DNA of 5,601 bases from an uncultured Haloferula sp. (GTDB lineage: Bacteria; Verrucomicrobiota; Verrucomicrobiae; Verrucomicrobiales; Akkermansiaceae). The DNA is taken from NCBI GenBank assembly GCA_946885645.1, contig CAMPGU010000273.1, positions 1-5,601 on the forward strand, written 5' to 3'. Positions 1-5,601 of this stretch are shown here, piece after piece. The notes below the pieces were generated by a model. It had not been told where the DNA came from. It did not search any database and saw only the letters and a list, made by a program, of their open reading frames with translations. Every line of letters begins with the position of its first letter. Position 1 is the first letter of the stretch. The position numbers were made by a program, and so were the translations under genes.

Positions 1-2
1 GC

Positions 3-407
3 ATCGCGGAGGGACAGATGATCCGGGCCGCCGGTCTGGGCGAGCCGGGCGTCGCCGGAGGAGGACCGGGCGATCTCTTCCTGCGGGTCCATCTGGAGCG
101 GCACCCGGATTTCCGCGCGGAGGGTCACGATCTTTATTACGATCTGCGGCTGGCCCCTTGGGAAGCGGTGCTGGGTGCCACGGTGCCGGTACAGACGCCG
201 CATGGCACCACGCGCATCAAAGTTCCGCCGGGCACCGAATCCGGGACGGAATTCCGCCTGACGGGAAAAGGCCTGCCGAAAGGCAAGGACGGCGGCCACG
301 GGGACCTTTTCGCGGTCGCGGAGGTCGTGACCCCGGCCACGGCCACCGAGGAGGAGACCCGCCACTGGAGGGCCTTGGCGGATGTTTCAAAGTTCAATCC
401 CCGCTGA
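3..407 (+). CDS. cbpA: CbpA/DnaJ-family co-chaperone, C-terminal part (5' end outside window)
   Basis: The reading frame is open from the window edge, so only the last 134 residues are visible. They cover the end of one substrate-binding beta domain and all of the second, with the DnaJ-type block GDLFLRVHLERHPDFRAEG, then LYYDL, APWEAVLGATVPV, a VPPGT loop and a GKGLP turn. The tail (VVTPATATEEETRHWRAL, ending FNPR) follows E. coli CbpA (which has FDPR near its end) better than DnaJ. The J domain with its HPD motif lies upstream, so its integrity cannot be judged. Known role of the family: a cytoplasmic Hsp40 that delivers misfolded clients to DnaK (Hsp70) and stimulates its ATPase; E. coli CbpA also binds DNA in the nucleoid. 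A CbpM-like gene 3 bp downstream supports CbpA over DnaJ. Family call is firm; the cbpA symbol rests on the tail and this neighbour. Confidence 0.9.
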   Translation: MAEGQMIRAAGLGEPGVAGGGPGDLFLRVHLERHPDFRAEGHDLYYDLRLAPWEAVLGATVPVQTPHGTTRIKVPPGTESGTEFRLTGKGLPKGKDGGHGDLFAVAEVVTPATATEEETRHWRALADVSKFNPR

Positions 408-410
408 GCC

Positions 411-728
411 ATGACTGCCAGGAACGAATCGCTTTCCATCCCCGTTTCGGCGGGAGACGAGCTCTTCGATCTCGAAGCCGCGGCCGAATTGAGCGGCATG
501 CACCCCGAGATGATCCTCGAATTCTGCCGCGCCCATATCGTGGCGCTGCATCGCCGGGGCGACCTTCTCCAATTCGACAATCGCGGCATCCACCGCCTGA
601 GGCTGATCGAGACGCTCCGTCACGAACGGAGCATGAGCCTGCGGTCGATCCGCTTTGTCGTGGAACTGATGGAGCGACTGGACTCGGCGGAGCGGGAATT
701 GCGAATCCTGCGGGAACGGGTCAGGTGA
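411..728 (+). CDS. cbpM: CbpM-like chaperone modulator (MerR-type HTH)
   Basis: This 105-residue protein is about the size of E. coli CbpM (101 aa) and has the same layout. After a short variable N-terminus, residues 18-42 (LFDLEAAAELSGMHPEMILEF) form a MerR-like helix-turn-helix. A beta turn follows (DLLQFDNRGI, 51-60), then a helical segment with the LRHERSMSLRSIRFVVELM pattern (69-87) and a charged, coiled-coil-prone end (88-105). Known role: CbpM binds the J domain of CbpA and blocks both its DnaK co-chaperone activity and its DNA binding. The start codon lies 3 bp after the cbpA stop and has no Shine-Dalgarno sequence, so translational coupling to cbpA is likely. A plain MerR-type DNA-binding regulator is the alternative, but the missing effector domain and the position argue for CbpM. 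The gene ends 10 bp from the 3' end of the convergent exported-protein gene. Confidence 0.82.
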   Translation: MTARNESLSIPVSAGDELFDLEAAAELSGMHPEMILEFCRAHIVALHRRGDLLQFDNRGIHRLRLIETLRHERSMSLRSIRFVVELMERLDSAERELRILRERVR

Positions 729-738
729 AAATCCCCGC

Positions 739-1761
739 CTACTGCTTCCACTGCCTCGTCCGGACGACGTGCACGCCGCCCTGAATCCTCTTCTTGGCTC
801 CCTCGGCCCCGCTGGAAATCGTTTGCACGGTGTCGAACTCCTCCCGCAACACGATCGGATGAAGCAGGGAGCACCACACGTTTCCGGAACGGAGGCTGAT
901 CTCGCGGTCGCTGACTTCCCCCTCAAGCCCAACCGAGCCCTTGACCGAAACGTCCCCCACCACCGTGAAGCGCCCGCAGGGGTGGCCATCGAGAGCTTCG
1001 GACATCTCGTAGGTCAGGGTGATCTTTCCGCTGCTTTTGCCAGGAAAGAGCAGCGCCATCGCATCGCCCGTGAGCTCGAGCTTGTCCCCCGCGCTCCAGC
1101 GGCGGGATGAAGAAAACCATTGCGTCCGCGGCAGGATCCCCTCGGTGGATAACACCGCGGGAAGCGCCCCCTGCAGTTGTTTGCCCCAGATCATCCGGGT
1201 AAAATCGACTGCGCCCTTGCCCTCGGGCATTTTCCAACCACCGGTCGTCTGCCGGAATTCCACCGAGGCTCCTTCGAGGCGCTTTGCACCGTCCATCCCG
1301 CCGCCCGCCTCGGGCACCGGCAGCGGTTGTTTCGCCTCTCCGGATTCCTCTTTCTCGACCACCCGGCCTGATTCCTCGATGCCGACGCTAAGTTGCGAAC
1401 CCTTGCGCTGGAGGGTCCCGATGGTTTCGTGCTTGCCGGTGAGCGGCACCTTCTCCACGCCCAAGGCAGAGGTGCTGACGATGCGGGCGTCTTTGAATTC
1501 AAGTCTTTCGGTGGTCCGCACCGAGACCTCCGTAGGGAAGGGCAAATCCCTGCGGAAGCGCACGCCTTCCGCCGCCGAGTCAACCTGCGGTGCCAGCTCC
1601 GGCAAGACATCGCCTCCGGGGGCTACCGGTGCGGAAGGATCCGCGCCGCGGAACTTTTCGCGAGCGGCGACCACCGCCTCCTTGGCCTTGTCGCACGACG
1701 CCGATCCATACGTCAACCCCGCCAGAAGGAGGGTCGCCGCAGCGCTTCGTAAGCGATTCAT
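739..1761 (-). CDS. hypothetical exported protein, probable lipoprotein
   Basis: I do not recognise the family. The 340-residue product starts with two Arg in the first five residues, a hydrophobic stretch (AAATLLLAGLTYG, 7-19) and SASC with Cys at 23. This looks like a type II signal peptide, though Ser instead of Leu/Val/Ile at -3 makes the lipobox imperfect. A low-complexity linker rich in Ala, Pro and Glu follows (24-66), then an apparently beta-rich body with alternating hydrophobic and charged residues, a Glu/Lys-rich segment (129-145), and two Cys (262 and 297) that could pair outside the cytoplasm. The frame stays open 44 codons further upstream, but that stretch looks non-coding and would bury the signal peptide, so the ATG at 1761 was chosen; it has no Shine-Dalgarno. 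Likely place: periplasm or outer-membrane inner face. It lies 95 bp downstream of cysE on the same strand, with its own possible promoter. No enzyme motif is visible. Confidence 0.72.
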   Translation of the reverse strand: MNRLRSAAATLLLAGLTYGSASCDKAKEAVVAAREKFRGADPSAPVAPGGDVLPELAPQVDSAAEGVRFRRDLPFPTEVSVRTTERLEFKDARIVSTSALGVEKVPLTGKHETIGTLQRKGSQLSVGIEESGRVVEKEESGEAKQPLPVPEAGGGMDGAKRLEGASVEFRQTTGGWKMPEGKGAVDFTRMIWGKQLQGALPAVLSTEGILPRTQWFSSSRRWSAGDKLELTGDAMALLFPGKSSGKITLTYEMSEALDGHPCGRFTVVGDVSVKGSVGLEGEVSDREISLRSGNVWCSLLHPIVLREEFDTVQTISSGAEGAKKRIQGGVHVVRTRQWKQ

Positions 1762-1770
1762 GATGATCAG

Positions 1771-1799
1771 ATAACATGAGGATTCCGGGATGGCGACAA
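1771..1799 (-). promoter_or_regulatory. candidate sigma-70-type promoter for the exported-protein gene
   Basis: Reading the minus strand, TTGTCG (1799-1794) and TGTTAT (1776-1771) each match the -35 and -10 consensus at four of six positions, with a 17 bp spacer. The -10 box ends 9 bp before the ATG at 1761, so the transcript would have a leader of only a few bases. This fits the missing Shine-Dalgarno at that start. It was found by eye in a 95 bp gap, and such matches occur by chance. Confidence 0.27.
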
Positions 1800-1856
1800 C
1801 AAGGTGCGGGCATCCGCCCCGGAAAGGGTCACGTGATCGCGTAAGCCCCCGCGCAT

Positions 1857-2738
1857 TCAAATGCTGAAGGTCAGATGCTCGCCTCCGCGGCAACCCAGAC
1901 GCTGGTCCATCTCAAGCGCGGGCGCATCCTCGCGGCTGACGCCCACGACCTGCGCCGGCACACCCGCCACGGTGGTATGCGGCATCACGTCATTCAAGAC
2001 CACGCTGCCTGCACCGACTTTCGCCCCCTCCCCGATTTCAACGCGCCCGAGGATCTTCGCTCCGGCCCCGAGAAGCACGCCGGAGCGCACGATCGGGTGG
2101 CGGTCTCCGGTTTCCTTGCCGGTGCCGCCGAGCGTGACCTCATGCAGAATCGAGACGTTGTCCTCGATGATGGCGGTCTCCCCCACCACGAAGCTGGTGG
2201 CGTGGTCCAGCAAGATGCCGCAGCCGATCCGCGCCGCCGGGTGGATATCCACCGCGAAGACCTCGCTGGCGAGACTCTGGAAATAGAGCGCGAGCTCCCG
2301 CCTGCCGTGTCTCCACAGATGGTGGGACACGCGGTAGGTGGAAATCGCCATGAAGCCCTTGTAAAAGAGCAAGGGATGAAGCGGCGAGTCGCAGGCCGGA
2401 TCGCGATCCACGATTGCCCGCAGGTCCCGTGCGACCGCGGCGACCAGCTCCTCGTCTCCTTGCAAAATCCCGGCCAGCAGGGGCGCGAGCTCTTCGCGGC
2501 TCATATCCTCACGCGCCAGCTTGCGGGCGAGGCGCACGCCCAGCGAAGCACCCAAGCAGGGCTGATCCAGCACCACCTCCCTCAAAAGAGGGAGTAACTG
2601 GGGCTCGCGGAGGGCCACCTGCGCGGCGTCTTCACGGATCCAATCCCATACGCCAGCGACGTCATTTCCCGCCGACTGACAGAGGCGAACAACCTTCGCG
2701 CTTCCGCCACCCTCGCCCGTGTGATGCTTTGCCTCCAT
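1857..2738 (-). CDS. cysE: serine O-acetyltransferase
   Basis: Transfers acetyl from acetyl-CoA to L-serine, giving O-acetylserine, the committed step of cysteine synthesis in the cytoplasm. The 293-residue product has an N-terminal helical domain (about 30-155, with PLLFYKGFMAI and YRVSHHLW as in CysE) and a C-terminal left-handed beta-helix of hexapeptide repeats (about 160-268). Both catalytic residues are present: Asp164 in VDIHP and His179 in LDHAT, the same spacing of 15 as Asp143/His158 in E. coli. DRHP (His214) and GAGAKILG/GAGSVVLNDV/HTTVAGVPA are also conserved. The chain ends in Ile after an EMDQ segment; in characterised CysE proteins the C-terminal Ile enters the CysK active site to build the cysteine synthase complex. 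There are about 20 residues before the conserved core that E. coli CysE lacks. The ATG at 2738 has GGGAA six bases upstream; an in-frame ATG at 2744 is the alternative. The start overlaps the divergent rrf2 start. Confidence 0.96.
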   Translation of the reverse strand: MEAKHHTGEGGGSAKVVRLCQSAGNDVAGVWDWIREDAAQVALREPQLLPLLREVVLDQPCLGASLGVRLARKLAREDMSREELAPLLAGILQGDEELVAAVARDLRAIVDRDPACDSPLHPLLFYKGFMAISTYRVSHHLWRHGRRELALYFQSLASEVFAVDIHPAARIGCGILLDHATSFVVGETAIIEDNVSILHEVTLGGTGKETGDRHPIVRSGVLLGAGAKILGRVEIGEGAKVGAGSVVLNDVMPHTTVAGVPAQVVGVSREDAPALEMDQRLGCRGGEHLTFSI

Positions 2739-3150
2739 GCGCATTTCCCAAAAGCTCGACTACGCGTGCCGCGCGATGGCCCAACTGGCCAAGCGTCACG
2801 ACGGGCGAACCATTACACGGCTGGACGAACTGGCGCAACGCGAAGCCGTGTCGGCAAACTTCCTTGTGCAGATCCTCAACGACTTGCGTCGTGCCGGCTT
2901 GGTGGAAAGCCGCAGGGGAAAGAGCGGCGGCTACATGCTGGCGCGCAAGCCCGATACGATCCACCTCAGGGAAATCGTCGAAGCGGTGGAGCCATCGCTG
3001 CTTTCCTTCTCTACCCATACCGAGGGGGAAAGCGGTATATCCGTGCGGGCGGCATGGGAAACGGTGGCGCGGGAGCTGCGCGACCACCTGGAGCGGGTGA
3101 CCCTGCCGCAATTGGCGGAGAAAAGCGAAGCGCCGATGTTTTACATCTGA
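2737..3150 (+). CDS. Rrf2-family transcriptional regulator (CymR-like candidate)
   Basis: A 137-residue winged helix-turn-helix DNA-binding protein, the family's usual length. The N-terminus MRISQKLDYACRAMAQLA is the typical Rrf2 opening and fixes the start at 2737. Then come the HTH (LDELAQREAVSANFLVQILN, 29-48), LRRAGLVESRRG, the wing SGGYMLA (63-69), and IHLREIVEAVE (75-85), a diagnostic Rrf2 block. The C-terminal part (90-137) is predicted to be the dimerisation helix. IscR, NsrR and RsrR bind an iron-sulfur cluster through cysteines after the wing. Here the only Cys is residue 11, so cluster sensing is unlikely. In this it resembles CymR, which represses cysteine genes in Firmicutes and senses O-acetylserine through CysK. 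The divergent, overlapping cysE makes a cysteine-metabolism role likely by inference. No Shine-Dalgarno precedes the ATG. The last 10 bp overlap the convergent GNAT gene. Confidence 0.93.
   Translation: MRISQKLDYACRAMAQLAKRHDGRTITRLDELAQREAVSANFLVQILNDLRRAGLVESRRGKSGGYMLARKPDTIHLREIVEAVEPSLLSFSTHTEGESGISVRAAWETVARELRDHLERVTLPQLAEKSEAPMFYI
2777..2791. repeat. short inverted repeat inside rrf2, upstream of cysE
   Basis: TGGCC and GGCCA flank a 5 bp spacer (CAACT), a perfect 5-5-5 dyad. It lies within rrf2 codons 14-19 and 39-53 bp upstream of the cysE start, where an operator for cysE would have to be because the two genes share no intergenic DNA. GC-rich coding sequence yields such dyads by chance, so this is only a candidate. 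Confidence 0.2.
2812..2840 (-). promoter_or_regulatory. weak candidate cysE promoter inside rrf2
   Basis: On the minus strand TGTAAT (2817-2812) matches the -10 consensus at five of six positions. The hexamer 17 bp upstream (CGTTGC, 2840-2835) is a poor -35. Transcription from here would give cysE a leader of roughly 65 bases. Any cysE-specific promoter must lie within rrf2, and this is the best -10 I can see there. Confidence 0.2.
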
Positions 3151-3743
3151 ACCTGCGGTTCGCGGAGCCAGAAGACGAGTTCGTTCGCCACCTCCGTGCC
3201 GGTGGTATCCACCTGCTTCCACGAGAGGCGTGCCCGCAGGTCGGGGCGTTTCACGTATCCGCGCTTTCCCCAGAAGAGGTCGTTCGGCCGGTAGCCGGGT
3301 GGGCGCAGCGGGTGATCGGCCGGTCGTTCCACGGCACAGAAACAGGTCCGGCGGAGGCCGAGTTCCCGCGCGTGTGCTTCCCGTTCATCGAAGAACCGGT
3401 GCCCGATGCCGCGTCCGCGCCACGCCGGATCGAGGACGGATTCGCCGCAATAGAACCATTCCCCGGGCGAAAGGCCGGCCGTTTTGAAAGGAGCTTGAAA
3501 CGCTTCGGCCGCATCGGCCAAGGGAAGTCCGGTGGACACCCCGACCACCTTTCCGTCGCCCAAGGCAATCACGAAGACGCTCCCAGGGCACCCGCCGTAA
3601 CCGGCGAGATACTCCCTTTCCGCTTCTTCGTCGCCGGCGTAGAGGTAAGGGAACTCGCGGAAGACGGAGATGCGGAGCCTCGCGGCATCCTGCAGGTAGT
3701 CCACTACCCCCGTCCCTGTGACCCGGCGGATTTCGGTCGGCAT
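3141..3743 (-). CDS. GNAT-family N-acetyltransferase
   Basis: A 200-residue protein of the GNAT fold, expected to move acetyl from acetyl-CoA to an amine. The acetyl-CoA-binding motif A is RGRGIG (109-114, matching R-x-x-G-x-G), after the strand FYCGESVLDPAW (97-108) and before the helix HRFFDEREAHARELG. Other conserved-looking blocks are RLRISVFREFPYLY (22-35), STGLPLAD (70-77) and VERPADHPLRPPGYRPNDLFWGKRGY (138-163). The whole pattern resembles a widespread uncharacterised GNAT family whose substrate I do not know. The frame is open for 103 more codons upstream, but these overlap the preceding gene and look out of frame with any domain; MPTEIRRV at 3743 is the natural start. It lies 50 bp after the HtrA-like gene on the same strand with no obvious terminator between, so co-transcription with the sigma operon is possible but unproven. 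Confidence 0.88.
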   Translation of the reverse strand: MPTEIRRVTGTGVVDYLQDAARLRISVFREFPYLYAGDEEAEREYLAGYGGCPGSVFVIALGDGKVVGVSTGLPLADAAEAFQAPFKTAGLSPGEWFYCGESVLDPAWRGRGIGHRFFDEREAHARELGLRRTCFCAVERPADHPLRPPGYRPNDLFWGKRGYVKRPDLRARLSWKQVDTTGTEVANELVFWLREPQVQM

Positions 3744-3793
3744 GCCGGAAACTAAAGATGCTCCAGGCGATCGCGGCAAGAGCGCCCGGGGTG

Positions 3794-4651
3794 TCAATTG
3801 CCCTCTTTCCGGACCGGCGTGACGGACAGCGAGAGCTCCTGATTTCCACGTCTCAACCGCAGCGGAGCCGAAACGCCGGGACGCAGGAAAAAGAAGGCAT
3901 TCACGGCATCGGCATATTCCGGCGTCCGGAGTTGGCCGATCTGGAGCAGCACGTCGCCTTCCCGGACTCCCGCGAGGGCGGAGGGCGAACCTTCCTGCAC
4001 CTTCGTCACCTGCGGGACCTTCGCCTCCGGACGCAGCTTCAGGCCGATCCAACCGCGGGAGACCTTCCCGTGACCCTGCACGTCTTCCAGGACCCGCTTC
4101 ACCACTTCCACGGGCAGGGCATAGCCGCGGCGGCCGTCTGAGGCCTGATGCGCGATCGCGACCACCGCGCCCGAGGCGTCCGTCAGCGGCGTCCCCGCAC
4201 GGGGAACCGTGGCCGAGTAGTCCATTTTCAGGAGGGACAGGGGGAGCATCTTGCCATTGATCTGCTTGATCCAGCCTTCCGCCTCAGCCTTGCCGCCGCC
4301 CTTCACGGCCCATTCCGCACCCGCCGCAGCGGAGCGCGAGGACGCCAGCGGTAGCGCTTTCTCCGCAGGGCCGGAAATTCGGAAAATGACGACCCGTGAA
4401 ACGGGATCCACGAAAACCTCGGCAGGAAGGATGCGGCCGGCCGACCGGAGCCGGACATCCGCGATCTGTACGCCCGACAGGGCCACGGCCACAAAGTACC
4501 GCCCGTCTCCCACGGGGAACGCCACCGAATCAGGCTCGCTCTCCGGCCCGCGGAAGACCGCCTCCCATGAAAGTTCGGCCGGAGCGGCGGATACGGACCA
4601 GATGCACATGCCGCCCAATGCCAGCAAGCACCGACAAAAAAAAGGAGTCAT
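3794..4651 (-). CDS. exported HtrA/DegP-like pseudoprotease with PDZ domain
   Basis: The 285-residue product has a signal peptide (MTPFFCRCLLALGGMCIWSVSA, cleavage likely after SVSA at 22), a degenerate S1C trypsin-like domain (about 28-190) and a PDZ domain (about 200-283, with SRGWIGLKLRP, VQEGSPSALAGVREGDVLLQIG). HtrA landmarks can be traced, but the catalytic residues are gone. The GNSGGPL active-site loop is RAGTPL (151-156) with Ala152 for Ser. The D-x-x-(T/S)-D-L-A strand is DPVSRVVIFRI (82-92) with Arg86 for Asp. No His occurs before residue 168, so the catalytic His is absent too. YALPVEVVKRVLEDV (177-191) matches the HtrA FAIP helix. It is expected in the periplasm. The start is 10 bp after the anti-sigma gene's stop, with AGGAG 16 bases upstream, so it belongs to the sigma/anti-sigma operon. 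A scaffold, chaperone or sensor role is inferred, by analogy with DegS in the sigma-E pathway. Confidence 0.82.
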   Translation of the reverse strand: MTPFFCRCLLALGGMCIWSVSAAPAELSWEAVFRGPESEPDSVAFPVGDGRYFVAVALSGVQIADVRLRSAGRILPAEVFVDPVSRVVIFRISGPAEKALPLASSRSAAAGAEWAVKGGGKAEAEGWIKQINGKMLPLSLLKMDYSATVPRAGTPLTDASGAVVAIAHQASDGRRGYALPVEVVKRVLEDVQGHGKVSRGWIGLKLRPEAKVPQVTKVQEGSPSALAGVREGDVLLQIGQLRTPEYADAVNAFFFLRPGVSAPLRLRRGNQELSLSVTPVRKEGN

Positions 4652-4661
4652 CCGGAATGGA

Positions 4662-5054
4662 TCAAAACTCCTGTTCCCCGGTGCTTCCCTGCGAAGAAGG
4701 ATGCAGATCCAAGGCTTTCAACTGCTCCACCGCGGCGGGTTCGGCAGGGGCCACCTTGTAGTGTACCGGAACAGGAGCCGCGGGCTGCTCGCGTGGAGCA
4801 TCCGGTGCCAGGAGAAACAATGCCGTGACCGTGGCGTAGGCCAGACCCACCCCGTAAGCCCACCTGGAAGCTCCCAGATTGGAAAACCATGCCGAGGCGC
4901 GGCGGAGCCACCCGGAGGGTCCGCTCTTCAGCACCTCCTCTTCCCGGCGGCGGTGGTGAAACTCGCGGAGAAAATCGTCGAAATACCCTTCCTCAGGGCG
5001 CTCATGGCGCTTGAGGGCAAGCAGGGCTCCGATCTCTTCAACACTCGGTTTCAC
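4662..5054 (-). CDS. probable anti-sigma factor, single-pass membrane protein
   Basis: A 130-residue protein encoded directly after the sigma gene. Residues 1-45 are helical and charged (LLALKRHERPEEGYFDDFLREFHHRRREEE), matching a motif I recall from verrucomicrobial proteins encoded after ECF sigma genes. Residues 46-64 are amphipathic with Trp and Arg, residues 65-83 (WAYGVGLAYATVTALFLLA) form one membrane span, and 84-130 is a Pro/Ala-rich tail ending in Gln-Glu-Phe. By the positive-inside rule the N-terminus is cytoplasmic and the tail periplasmic. The protein has no Cys, so it is not a zinc-binding (ZAS) anti-sigma factor, and I see no clear sequence match to RseA. The function is therefore inferred from position and topology. 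The start is GTG at 5054, since an in-frame stop lies 12 bases upstream; no Shine-Dalgarno is evident. The next gene starts 10 bp downstream. Confidence 0.7.
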   Translation of the reverse strand: MKPSVEEIGALLALKRHERPEEGYFDDFLREFHHRRREEEVLKSGPSGWLRRASAWFSNLGASRWAYGVGLAYATVTALFLLAPDAPREQPAAPVPVHYKVAPAEPAAVEQLKALDLHPSSQGSTGEQEF

Positions 5055-5098
5055 GGCGATTGATGGTTAACGTATCTAAAACTTTAGGGCGCTCTGCA

Positions 5099-5119
5099 AG
5101 GATTTTTTTAAAAAAGCCT
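5099..5119. repeat. A/T palindrome between sigma and anti-sigma genes
   Basis: A run of seven T followed by six A (5103-5115 on the plus strand) is flanked by AGG (5099-5101) and CCT (5117-5119), giving an imperfect dyad that touches the sigma stop codon. It sits in the 64 bp sigma/anti-sigma gap, the most AT-rich spot in the window. In the RNA it could form a weak hairpin and lower anti-sigma expression relative to sigma, but there is no GC-rich stem as in a standard terminator. Function is unknown. Confidence 0.3.
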
Positions 5120-5601
5120 CACTCCCAATAATCCTGCAACTTCGACTGGAGGTGGAGATGGGCATAATGCAGGCGGGACCGCACGGTCCCCTCGGAGGTC
5201 TTGAGGATGCGTGCAATTTCAGCATGCGGCAGGCCTTGGATGTCGAACATCGTCACCACCGTTCTATGCGCTTCTGACAGGGAGAGCATCGCTTCGTTCA
5301 ATCTTTTTTGAAGCTCGTGAAGCTTGCTCTGTTTCTCGGGATTCGCGAGATGACTGGTATCCACCAGCGCCGGATCGAGTTGGATCGATGAATCCAATTC
5401 GTTGAGACTCATTCCGCTACGGCGCTTCCTTTTCTTCAGGAAGTTCAAGGTCATATTGACCGCGATCTGGTAGATCCAGGTGTAAAAACTGGCTTGGCCG
5501 CGGAACCGGGGAAGGGAATGATAGGCCTTCGCAAAAATGTCCTGGAGCAGGTCGTGGGTGTCCTCCTTGTGGGAGGTCATATTATAGACTAAGCCGTACA
5601 G
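5119..5601 (-). CDS. ECF (sigma-70 family, RpoE-type) sigma factor, 5' end outside window
   Basis: Directs RNA polymerase to a specific promoter set, usually for a stress or envelope response. The frame is open to the window edge: seven codons (LYGLVYN) precede the first visible Met at 5580 and read as region 2, so that Met is internal. Visible in order: region 2 (DLLQDIFAKAYHSLPRFRG, then ASFYTWIYQIAVNMTLNFLKKRKRR, the -10 recognition part), a linker of about 40 residues, and region 4 (LNEAMLSLSEAHRTVVTMFDIQGLPHAEIARILKTSEGTVRSRLHYA), whose HTH reads the -35 element. The chain ends DYWE. About 160 residues are seen, so roughly 20-40 are missing. GC content is lower than in the neighbours (about 48% in two sampled 60 bp rows). 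The anti-sigma-like gene follows after 64 bp. Confidence 0.95.
   Translation of the reverse strand: MYGLVYNMTSHKEDTHDLLQDIFAKAYHSLPRFRGQASFYTWIYQIAVNMTLNFLKKRKRRSGMSLNELDSSIQLDPALVDTSHLANPEKQSKLHELQKRLNEAMLSLSEAHRTVVTMFDIQGLPHAEIARILKTSEGTVRSRLHYAHLHLQSKLQDYWE

Follow-up and report, generated by a model that had tools for sequence, protein, structure and literature searches.

A conserved three-gene operon in Verrucomicrobia suggests an envelope-stress switch in which an HtrA-like pseudoprotease may grip the C-terminus of a putative anti-sigma factor

Three described systems lie closest to the one considered here: the sigma-E/RseA/DegS-RseB-RseP system of Escherichia coli, the AlgU/MucA/AlgW/MucE system of Pseudomonas aeruginosa and the sigE-rseA-htrA-tatB locus of Mycobacterium tuberculosis. 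We compare with them a minus-strand trio of genes (an extracytoplasmic function [ECF] sigma factor, a putative one-span anti-sigma factor and an HtrA-like PDZ gene whose product, the pseudo-HtrA, lacks the protease triad) in 5,601 nucleotides of DNA from an uncultured Haloferula sp. (GenBank assembly GCA_946885645.1, contig CAMPGU010000273.1, positions 1 to 5,601 of the forward strand), the whole of which we call the window. The E. coli system, described in part in passages of PMC7728848 and PMC10202637, is alike in its ECF sigma factor and one-span anti-sigma factor, its periplasmic HtrA-fold PDZ protein, its non-protease guard (RseB) and its RseP-like protease. It differs in that here the gene of the HtrA-like partner adjoins the anti-sigma gene and its product is without the triad, the ligand that we propose is the anti-sigma factor's own C-terminus, and neither an RseA nor an RseB Pfam domain is found. 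In P. aeruginosa, according to passages of PMC8545111, the PDZ domain of an HtrA reads a hydrophobic C-terminus (the MucE peptide WVF), much as is proposed here; AlgW, however, is proteolytically active and recognises a third protein, whereas the degenerate HtrA described here would recognise the anti-sigma factor of its own operon. The M. tuberculosis locus has the same gene order (sigma, anti-sigma, HtrA), but according to excerpts of PMC10027907 its HtrA is a serine protease and essential, sigE is not cotranscribed with rseA, and regulation there works through redox and through a proteolysis of RseA that depends on phosphorylation. The window system may work like sigma-E/RseA, although the missing triad places its third protein outside the HtrA proteases. 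Searches of an open-access library listed no title on this operon or on a pseudo-HtrA encoded next to an anti-sigma factor.

We suggest, with moderate confidence and from sequence comparison, that the trio forms an envelope-stress switch in which a pseudoprotease PDZ partner grips the anti-sigma factor's C-terminus. Four patterns bear on this reading: the operon is conserved, its HtrA-like protein lacks the triad in every copy examined, the peptide-binding loop is kept, and a hydrophobic anti-sigma end goes with the presence of the pseudo-HtrA gene.

The open reading frames (ORFs) confirm the layout given in a preliminary description of the window, three minus-strand genes with intergenic gaps of 64 and 10 bp (Table 1), and the order is conserved in related genomes. 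In a first scan of genome contigs, sigma, anti-sigma and PDZ genes stood in order at 9 of 10 loci, the tenth (L005) being a contig end that holds part of the PDZ gene; the sigma gene of L002 is likewise a contig-end piece. Named relatives include Luteolibacter and Haloferula and point to that part of the Verrucomicrobia as the probable origin of the window. Among 288 genomes of the order to which Luteolibacter marinus (G004) belongs, 200 had a match to the anti-sigma profile and 109 a match to the PDZ profile at E 1e-18. Of the 110 PDZ matches in these genomes, 71 had a listed anti-sigma match no more than 1.5 kb upstream of them on their own strand, 6 were not beside an anti-sigma match, and 33 fell in genomes outside the 150 anti-sigma matches listed; among 20 of those 33 loci that were fetched, 16 carried all three genes and in four no anti-sigma gene was recognised. 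A further 44 loci (22 + 22), chosen among the highest-scoring entries of the lists for class and phylum rather than at random and including at least one (L205, G095) inside the order, all carried sigma, anti-sigma and pseudo-HtrA genes; the same lists also hold ordinary HtrAs. The sigma factor is an ordinary one of the ECF kind, with matches to Sigma70_r2 (3.1e-14) and Sigma70_r4_2 (4e-13) above the curated Pfam cut-offs and to the sigma70-ECF superfamily model above its own; the protein starts outside the window, and in several relatives it is 196–197 aa long.

The third protein has the trypsin-like fold and PDZ domain of the S1C HtrA/DegP family, as indicated by a PDZ_2 match and by an AlphaFold2 model (mean predicted local distance difference test score [pLDDT] 86.8) whose first Foldseek matches include DegQ, HtrA, DegP and MucD. 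It also aligns with DegP-like, MucD and DegQ chains among PDB sequences (best stretches between residues 60 and 281), and in Pfam PDZ models matched it but no trypsin-fold model did. Read by eye, its N-terminus suggests that it is probably exported. The His-Asp-Ser triad of the family is replaced in the window by Leu58, Arg86 and Ala152, and this absence, which the preliminary description had read as apparent from the window alone, was borne out in every operon copy examined. None of 100 aligned operon rows carries the triad (His in 0, Asp in 1, Ser in 5, never two together), in an alignment that includes three same-genome repeats, four fragments (three of them gapped) and seven intact HtrA references; the count is likewise 0/22 and 0/22 in the two further sets from the class and phylum score lists. 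The same triad test detected His, Asp and Ser in 9/9 HtrA relatives outside the operon, as well as an intact triad in 20/20 HtrA relatives from genomes whose operon is without pseudo-HtrA, so the test is able to detect a triad where there is one. The loss is therefore shared among operon copies and is probably old rather than a recent decay. Related operons with an intact triad or without the gene order were looked for and not found among the loci examined, and for these loci a recent, local loss of the triad is rejected, every operon copy being without it. At one locus (L006:9908-10769) a pair of ORFs takes the place of a single pseudo-HtrA gene, through real decay or assembly error.

The carboxylate-binding loop of the PDZ domain, on the other hand, is kept. 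Over 93 order-level rows (a count that leaves out the fragments L006, L014, L025 and L077), G203 is present in 93 and W201 in 80, residue 202 is I, L, V, M or F in 92, and residue 204 is L, I, V or F in 81, the other 12 having C or A. The W is found in 20 and 18 loci, and the G in 22 and 21, of the two 22-locus sets. By motif, without superposition, W201-I202-G203-L204 of the window correspond to W281-L282-G283-V284 of AlgW. Passages of PMC8545111 report that alanine at W281, L282 or V284 lowers AlgW activity and that the terminal F sits in their pocket. On this motif comparison, the loop and hydrophobic pocket of a C-terminus-reading PDZ domain of the DegS/AlgW type are present, with W-phi-G-phi kept.

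A candidate for what such a groove would read lies in the same operon. All 137 loci with a pseudo-HtrA gene have an anti-sigma factor that ends in F, L, Y or M (F 100, L 23, Y 8, M 6). At the order level, a hydrophobic end (F, L, M or Y) occurs in 93/93 loci with the gene and in 14/58 without it (F, L or Y), the latter having been hand-picked as anti-sigma matches without an adjoining PDZ match rather than drawn at random. After clustering at 55% identity (115 loci versus 58) the figures are 52/52 and 7/25, respectively, with a Fisher p of 2.9e-12 in a test that ignores kinship. The last position holds 3.25 bits against 0.65–1.98 bits at the 15 preceding ones, and in the wider set most of the tail conservation sits in the last one or two residues. 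The gene-less loci (24% hydrophobic ends) are at background, because 22% of 364 other mechanically called ORFs of 300 aa or more end in the same way. The preliminary description had proposed that the protein senses or holds peptides and cannot cut; the missing triad, conserved order and kept loop support that direction, but this specific candidate ligand, the anti-sigma factor's own C-terminus, had been missed. Its comparison of the third protein with RseB stands as one of function only, as the protein has no MucB_RseB match in Pfam, where PDZ models alone match, and its fold is that of HtrA with PDZ.

On a tree of 148 sigma proteins, parsimony with costly gains placed 15 gene losses and 11 tail-end losses; 11/11 tail losses fell on gene-less branches, a 30% share of the tree length (p 2e-6), as did 5/5 when gains and losses cost the same (p 0.003), and none on the 70% that carries the pseudo-HtrA gene. 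Mere relocation of the pseudo-HtrA is rejected for the matches examined: it was sought in 20 genomes whose operon lacks one, and the 20 fetched matches (15 genomes) were all intact HtrAs; lower-scoring matches lie outside this fetched set and the genomes may be incomplete. Rows dropped were L079; L019, L023 and L037 (same genomes as L003, L004 and L010, and still among the 100 triad rows); L121 (a contig end, ending REF); and L005, L081, L084, and L085 and L086 (no recognised anti-sigma gene). Repeats of the same places (L161-L188, L211-L213, L222-L225, L227-L230, L232-L239 and L261-L272) enter no count. L036, L048 and L087, in which long mechanical ORF starts had hidden the PDZ gene, were counted as carrying it. 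At L042-L045, L060 and L064 a YjbQ-like gene (by eye) follows the anti-sigma gene where the pseudo-HtrA gene is missing, and the tails there (QKL, LKF, IKF, FRF, PGP and PGP) look like drift.

The middle protein is probably an anti-sigma factor. This label rests on position in a conserved neighbourhood and on architecture, because the 130-aa protein of the window matched no Pfam family and no solved structure convincingly (one PDB chain at E 0.38; none by Foldseek). Nor was an RseA-type anti-sigma domain found among 45 relatives, whose sole Pfam match is to one domain of unknown function (DUF) in one member at E 0.078. AlphaFold2 predicts, at low confidence (mean pLDDT 68.5; predicted template modelling score 0.30), four helices followed by an unstructured tail.

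In the switch that we favour, the one-span anti-sigma factor would keep the ECF sigma factor at the inner membrane, and its short periplasmic tail would end in a PDZ ligand, here GEQEF-COOH. The secreted pseudo-HtrA, with no catalytic His, Asp or Ser and its PDZ loop kept, would grip this C-terminus and so guard the anti-sigma factor; from the joint conservation of tail end and loop we infer that the PDZ groove of each pseudo-HtrA receives the tail of the anti-sigma factor encoded beside it. Phe is a frequent last residue of outer-membrane proteins, and the signal may come from other hydrophobic C-termini, for instance on outer-membrane proteins that have misassembled, which would titrate or move the pseudo-HtrA and free the tail. 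The freed anti-sigma factor would then be removed by another protease, most likely a site-2 protease of the RseP type, either alone or after a first step by an active HtrA. Guarding is a likely consequence of tail docking because proteases of the RseP type are present (the family scores above its curated cut-off in 20/22 genomes and below it in two) and RseP is reported to cut truncated RseA without site-1 cleavage (passages of the review PMC10202637). The same passages suggest that the new C-terminus of DegS-cut RseA touches the RseP PDZ domain; a capped hydrophobic end would fit this. A more specific version, which we put forward as a tentative possibility, is regulated intramembrane proteolysis free of a site-1 protease, in which a short-tailed anti-sigma factor is capped by the pseudo-HtrA and competing C-termini of a stressed envelope expose it to the site-2 protease.

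Several observations weigh against this switch. A strict test on independent pairs was not significant (median p 0.5; 8 supported pairs, 200 pairings), although the tail followed the gene in 2.2 pairs on average (1–3), the opposite never occurred, and 5–7 pairs showed no difference. The tail end thus seems to be lost some time after the gene. The 14/58 gene-less loci with a hydrophobic end are near background as a fraction, yet they include clear retained ends such as the QEF of L038 (G194). This locus has no pseudo-HtrA gene, its anti-sigma gene is directly followed by one that looks GNAT-like by eye, and the anti-sigma factor still ends AEQEF; such ends are in keeping with a gene lost not long ago or with a second reader of the tail. 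Anti-sigma factors that end in F or Y and those that end in L come with differences in PDZ helix residues 246–254 (positions 249, 253 and 254), but these track kinship, and within one clade no clear change of the PDZ pocket matched the F or L end. The anti-sigma factor's lack of a family match and its low-confidence structure model count on the same side.

The alternative that survives best, though we consider it unlikely, is that an RseP-like protease or a catalytically active HtrA reads the hydrophobic end through its own PDZ domain and the pseudo-HtrA has some other role in the pathway. The RseP-like proteins in those 20 of 22 genomes and the suggested contact between RseA and the RseP PDZ domain (passages of PMC10202637) speak for it, as do the active HtrAs in genomes without pseudo-HtrA and the hydrophobic ends that persist at 14 gene-less loci. 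However, RseP also scores above cut-off in 4/5 tested genomes whose operon lacks pseudo-HtrA (G103, G109, G115 and G143; G064 is below), and intact HtrAs are present in 15 such genomes, yet the hydrophobic end has been lost in 44/58 gene-less loci. More doubtful is the idea that the pseudo-HtrA acts as an RseB-like sensor of another part of the anti-sigma factor or of misfolded proteins, the tail end serving stability or cutting only. RseB itself is a guard without protease activity, and the close relatives of the window also share an EQL..LDL block in the anti-sigma tail; against this, it is the last one or two residues that hold most of the conservation, and their fate tracks the pseudo-HtrA gene. 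HtrA proteins can act as chaperones, and a sigma-controlled chaperone whose link to the tail is shared ancestry plus coincidence would sit well with the non-significant pair test, but we judge it improbable given zero tail loss along the gene-carrying 70% of tree length and the 52/52 clusters.

The two remaining candidates can be set aside with near certainty. The conserved end might be a Shine-Dalgarno signal for the downstream gene, whose start is near, since AGGAG-like DNA can encode E at -2 and Q or R at -3 and such a signal would go with the gene; this is rejected by site placement (of 137 loci, 1 has a candidate site that reaches into the last three codons, 25 have one at some other place and 111 gave none) and by mixed codons (F as TTC 58 and TTT 42; E at -2 as GAA 38 and GAG 28), and the free synonymous variation therefore points to selection at the protein level. 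An active site of some unrecognised kind, with which the HtrA-like protein could still cut, is equally remote: nothing was found in its favour, and all three catalytic columns are replaced, and by varying residues, across members.

Upstream of the sigma gene, a classical GGAACTT-type promoter was not enriched, and the looser pattern GAAC-N16-19-TC occurs at 51/147 loci against a shuffled mean of 28, with scattered positions. The element CTTTACA-N14-TGTA occurs exactly once per genome in 12/12 close genomes, each time upstream of the sigma gene (L001, L003, L004, L006, L011-L013, L015-L018 and L020; outside the window). The pattern in reverse, used as a control, matched 14 times across these 12 genomes (0–4 each), so it is the placement, not the number, that is striking. 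The relaxed form TTTACA-N13-16-TGTA stands upstream of the sigma gene in 23/144 loci, with 24 matches in total across those loci; the element can be read as TTTACA-N16-TAGNNT or as a TACA/TGTA dyad, and no match of this upstream motif lies within the window.

Beyond the operon, a relative of the GNAT acetyltransferase that follows it in the window lies downstream in 5/10 loci of the first contig scan. Positions 3-407 and 411-728 encode a DnaJ C-terminal-domain protein and then a MerR_2 protein (Pfam), a pair which we take to resemble CbpA/CbpM. A serine acetyltransferase (1857-2744) and an Rrf2 regulator (2737-3150) are divergent, their listed starts overlapping by 8 bp, and this pair may provide local control of cysteine synthesis. 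Between these, an ORF of 384 aa (739-1893) has no Pfam match; an inner start would yield a lipoprotein-like N-terminus, as read by eye.

Table 1. Features of the putative sigma/anti-sigma/pseudo-HtrA operon and its next downstream gene, in window coordinates.
Feature	Position	Strand	Details and basis
ECF sigma factor	5119..5601	-	160 aa visible; 5' end beyond window edge
Putative one-span anti-sigma factor	4662..5054	-	130 aa, GTG start
Predicted transmembrane span of anti-sigma factor, residues 65-83	4806..4862	-	hydropathy alone
Predicted extracytoplasmic tail of anti-sigma factor, residues 84-130	4665..4805	-	47 aa; hydropathy; pLDDT <50 from residue 100
Anti-sigma C-terminus GEQEF-COOH, proposed PDZ ligand	4665..4679	-	last-residue conservation
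Pseudo-HtrA: degenerate trypsin fold and one PDZ domain	3794..4651	-	285 aa
Catalytic His column, Leu58	4478..4480	-	alignment to seven intact HtrA sequences
Catalytic Asp column, Arg86 (DPVSR)	4394..4396	-	alignment to seven intact HtrA sequences
Catalytic Ser region VPRAGTPL, Ala152 in Ser column (active HtrA: GNSGGPL)	4184..4207	-	alignment
PDZ domain, residues 201-277	3821..4051	-	PF13180 (PDZ_2), E 3.4e-8
Carboxylate-binding loop RGWIGLKL, residues 199-206	4034..4057	-	conservation; matched to AlgW by motif
GNAT acetyltransferase, next downstream gene	3141..3743	-	PF00583, 4.1e-8; outside operon core

If the proposed switch holds, it would explain how envelope stress could be sensed by a non-cutting, operon-encoded HtrA in a large and little-studied bacterial group, and it would give a clear natural case of an HtrA in which catalysis has been lost and signalling kept. 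The predicted ligand is specified to the last amino acid and lineages without the partner serve as natural controls, such that the function of the pseudo-HtrA becomes a question of single residues. Should the version free of a site-1 protease be true, the pseudoprotease would be an old, class-wide sensor in which cutting has been replaced by competition for one PDZ ligand.

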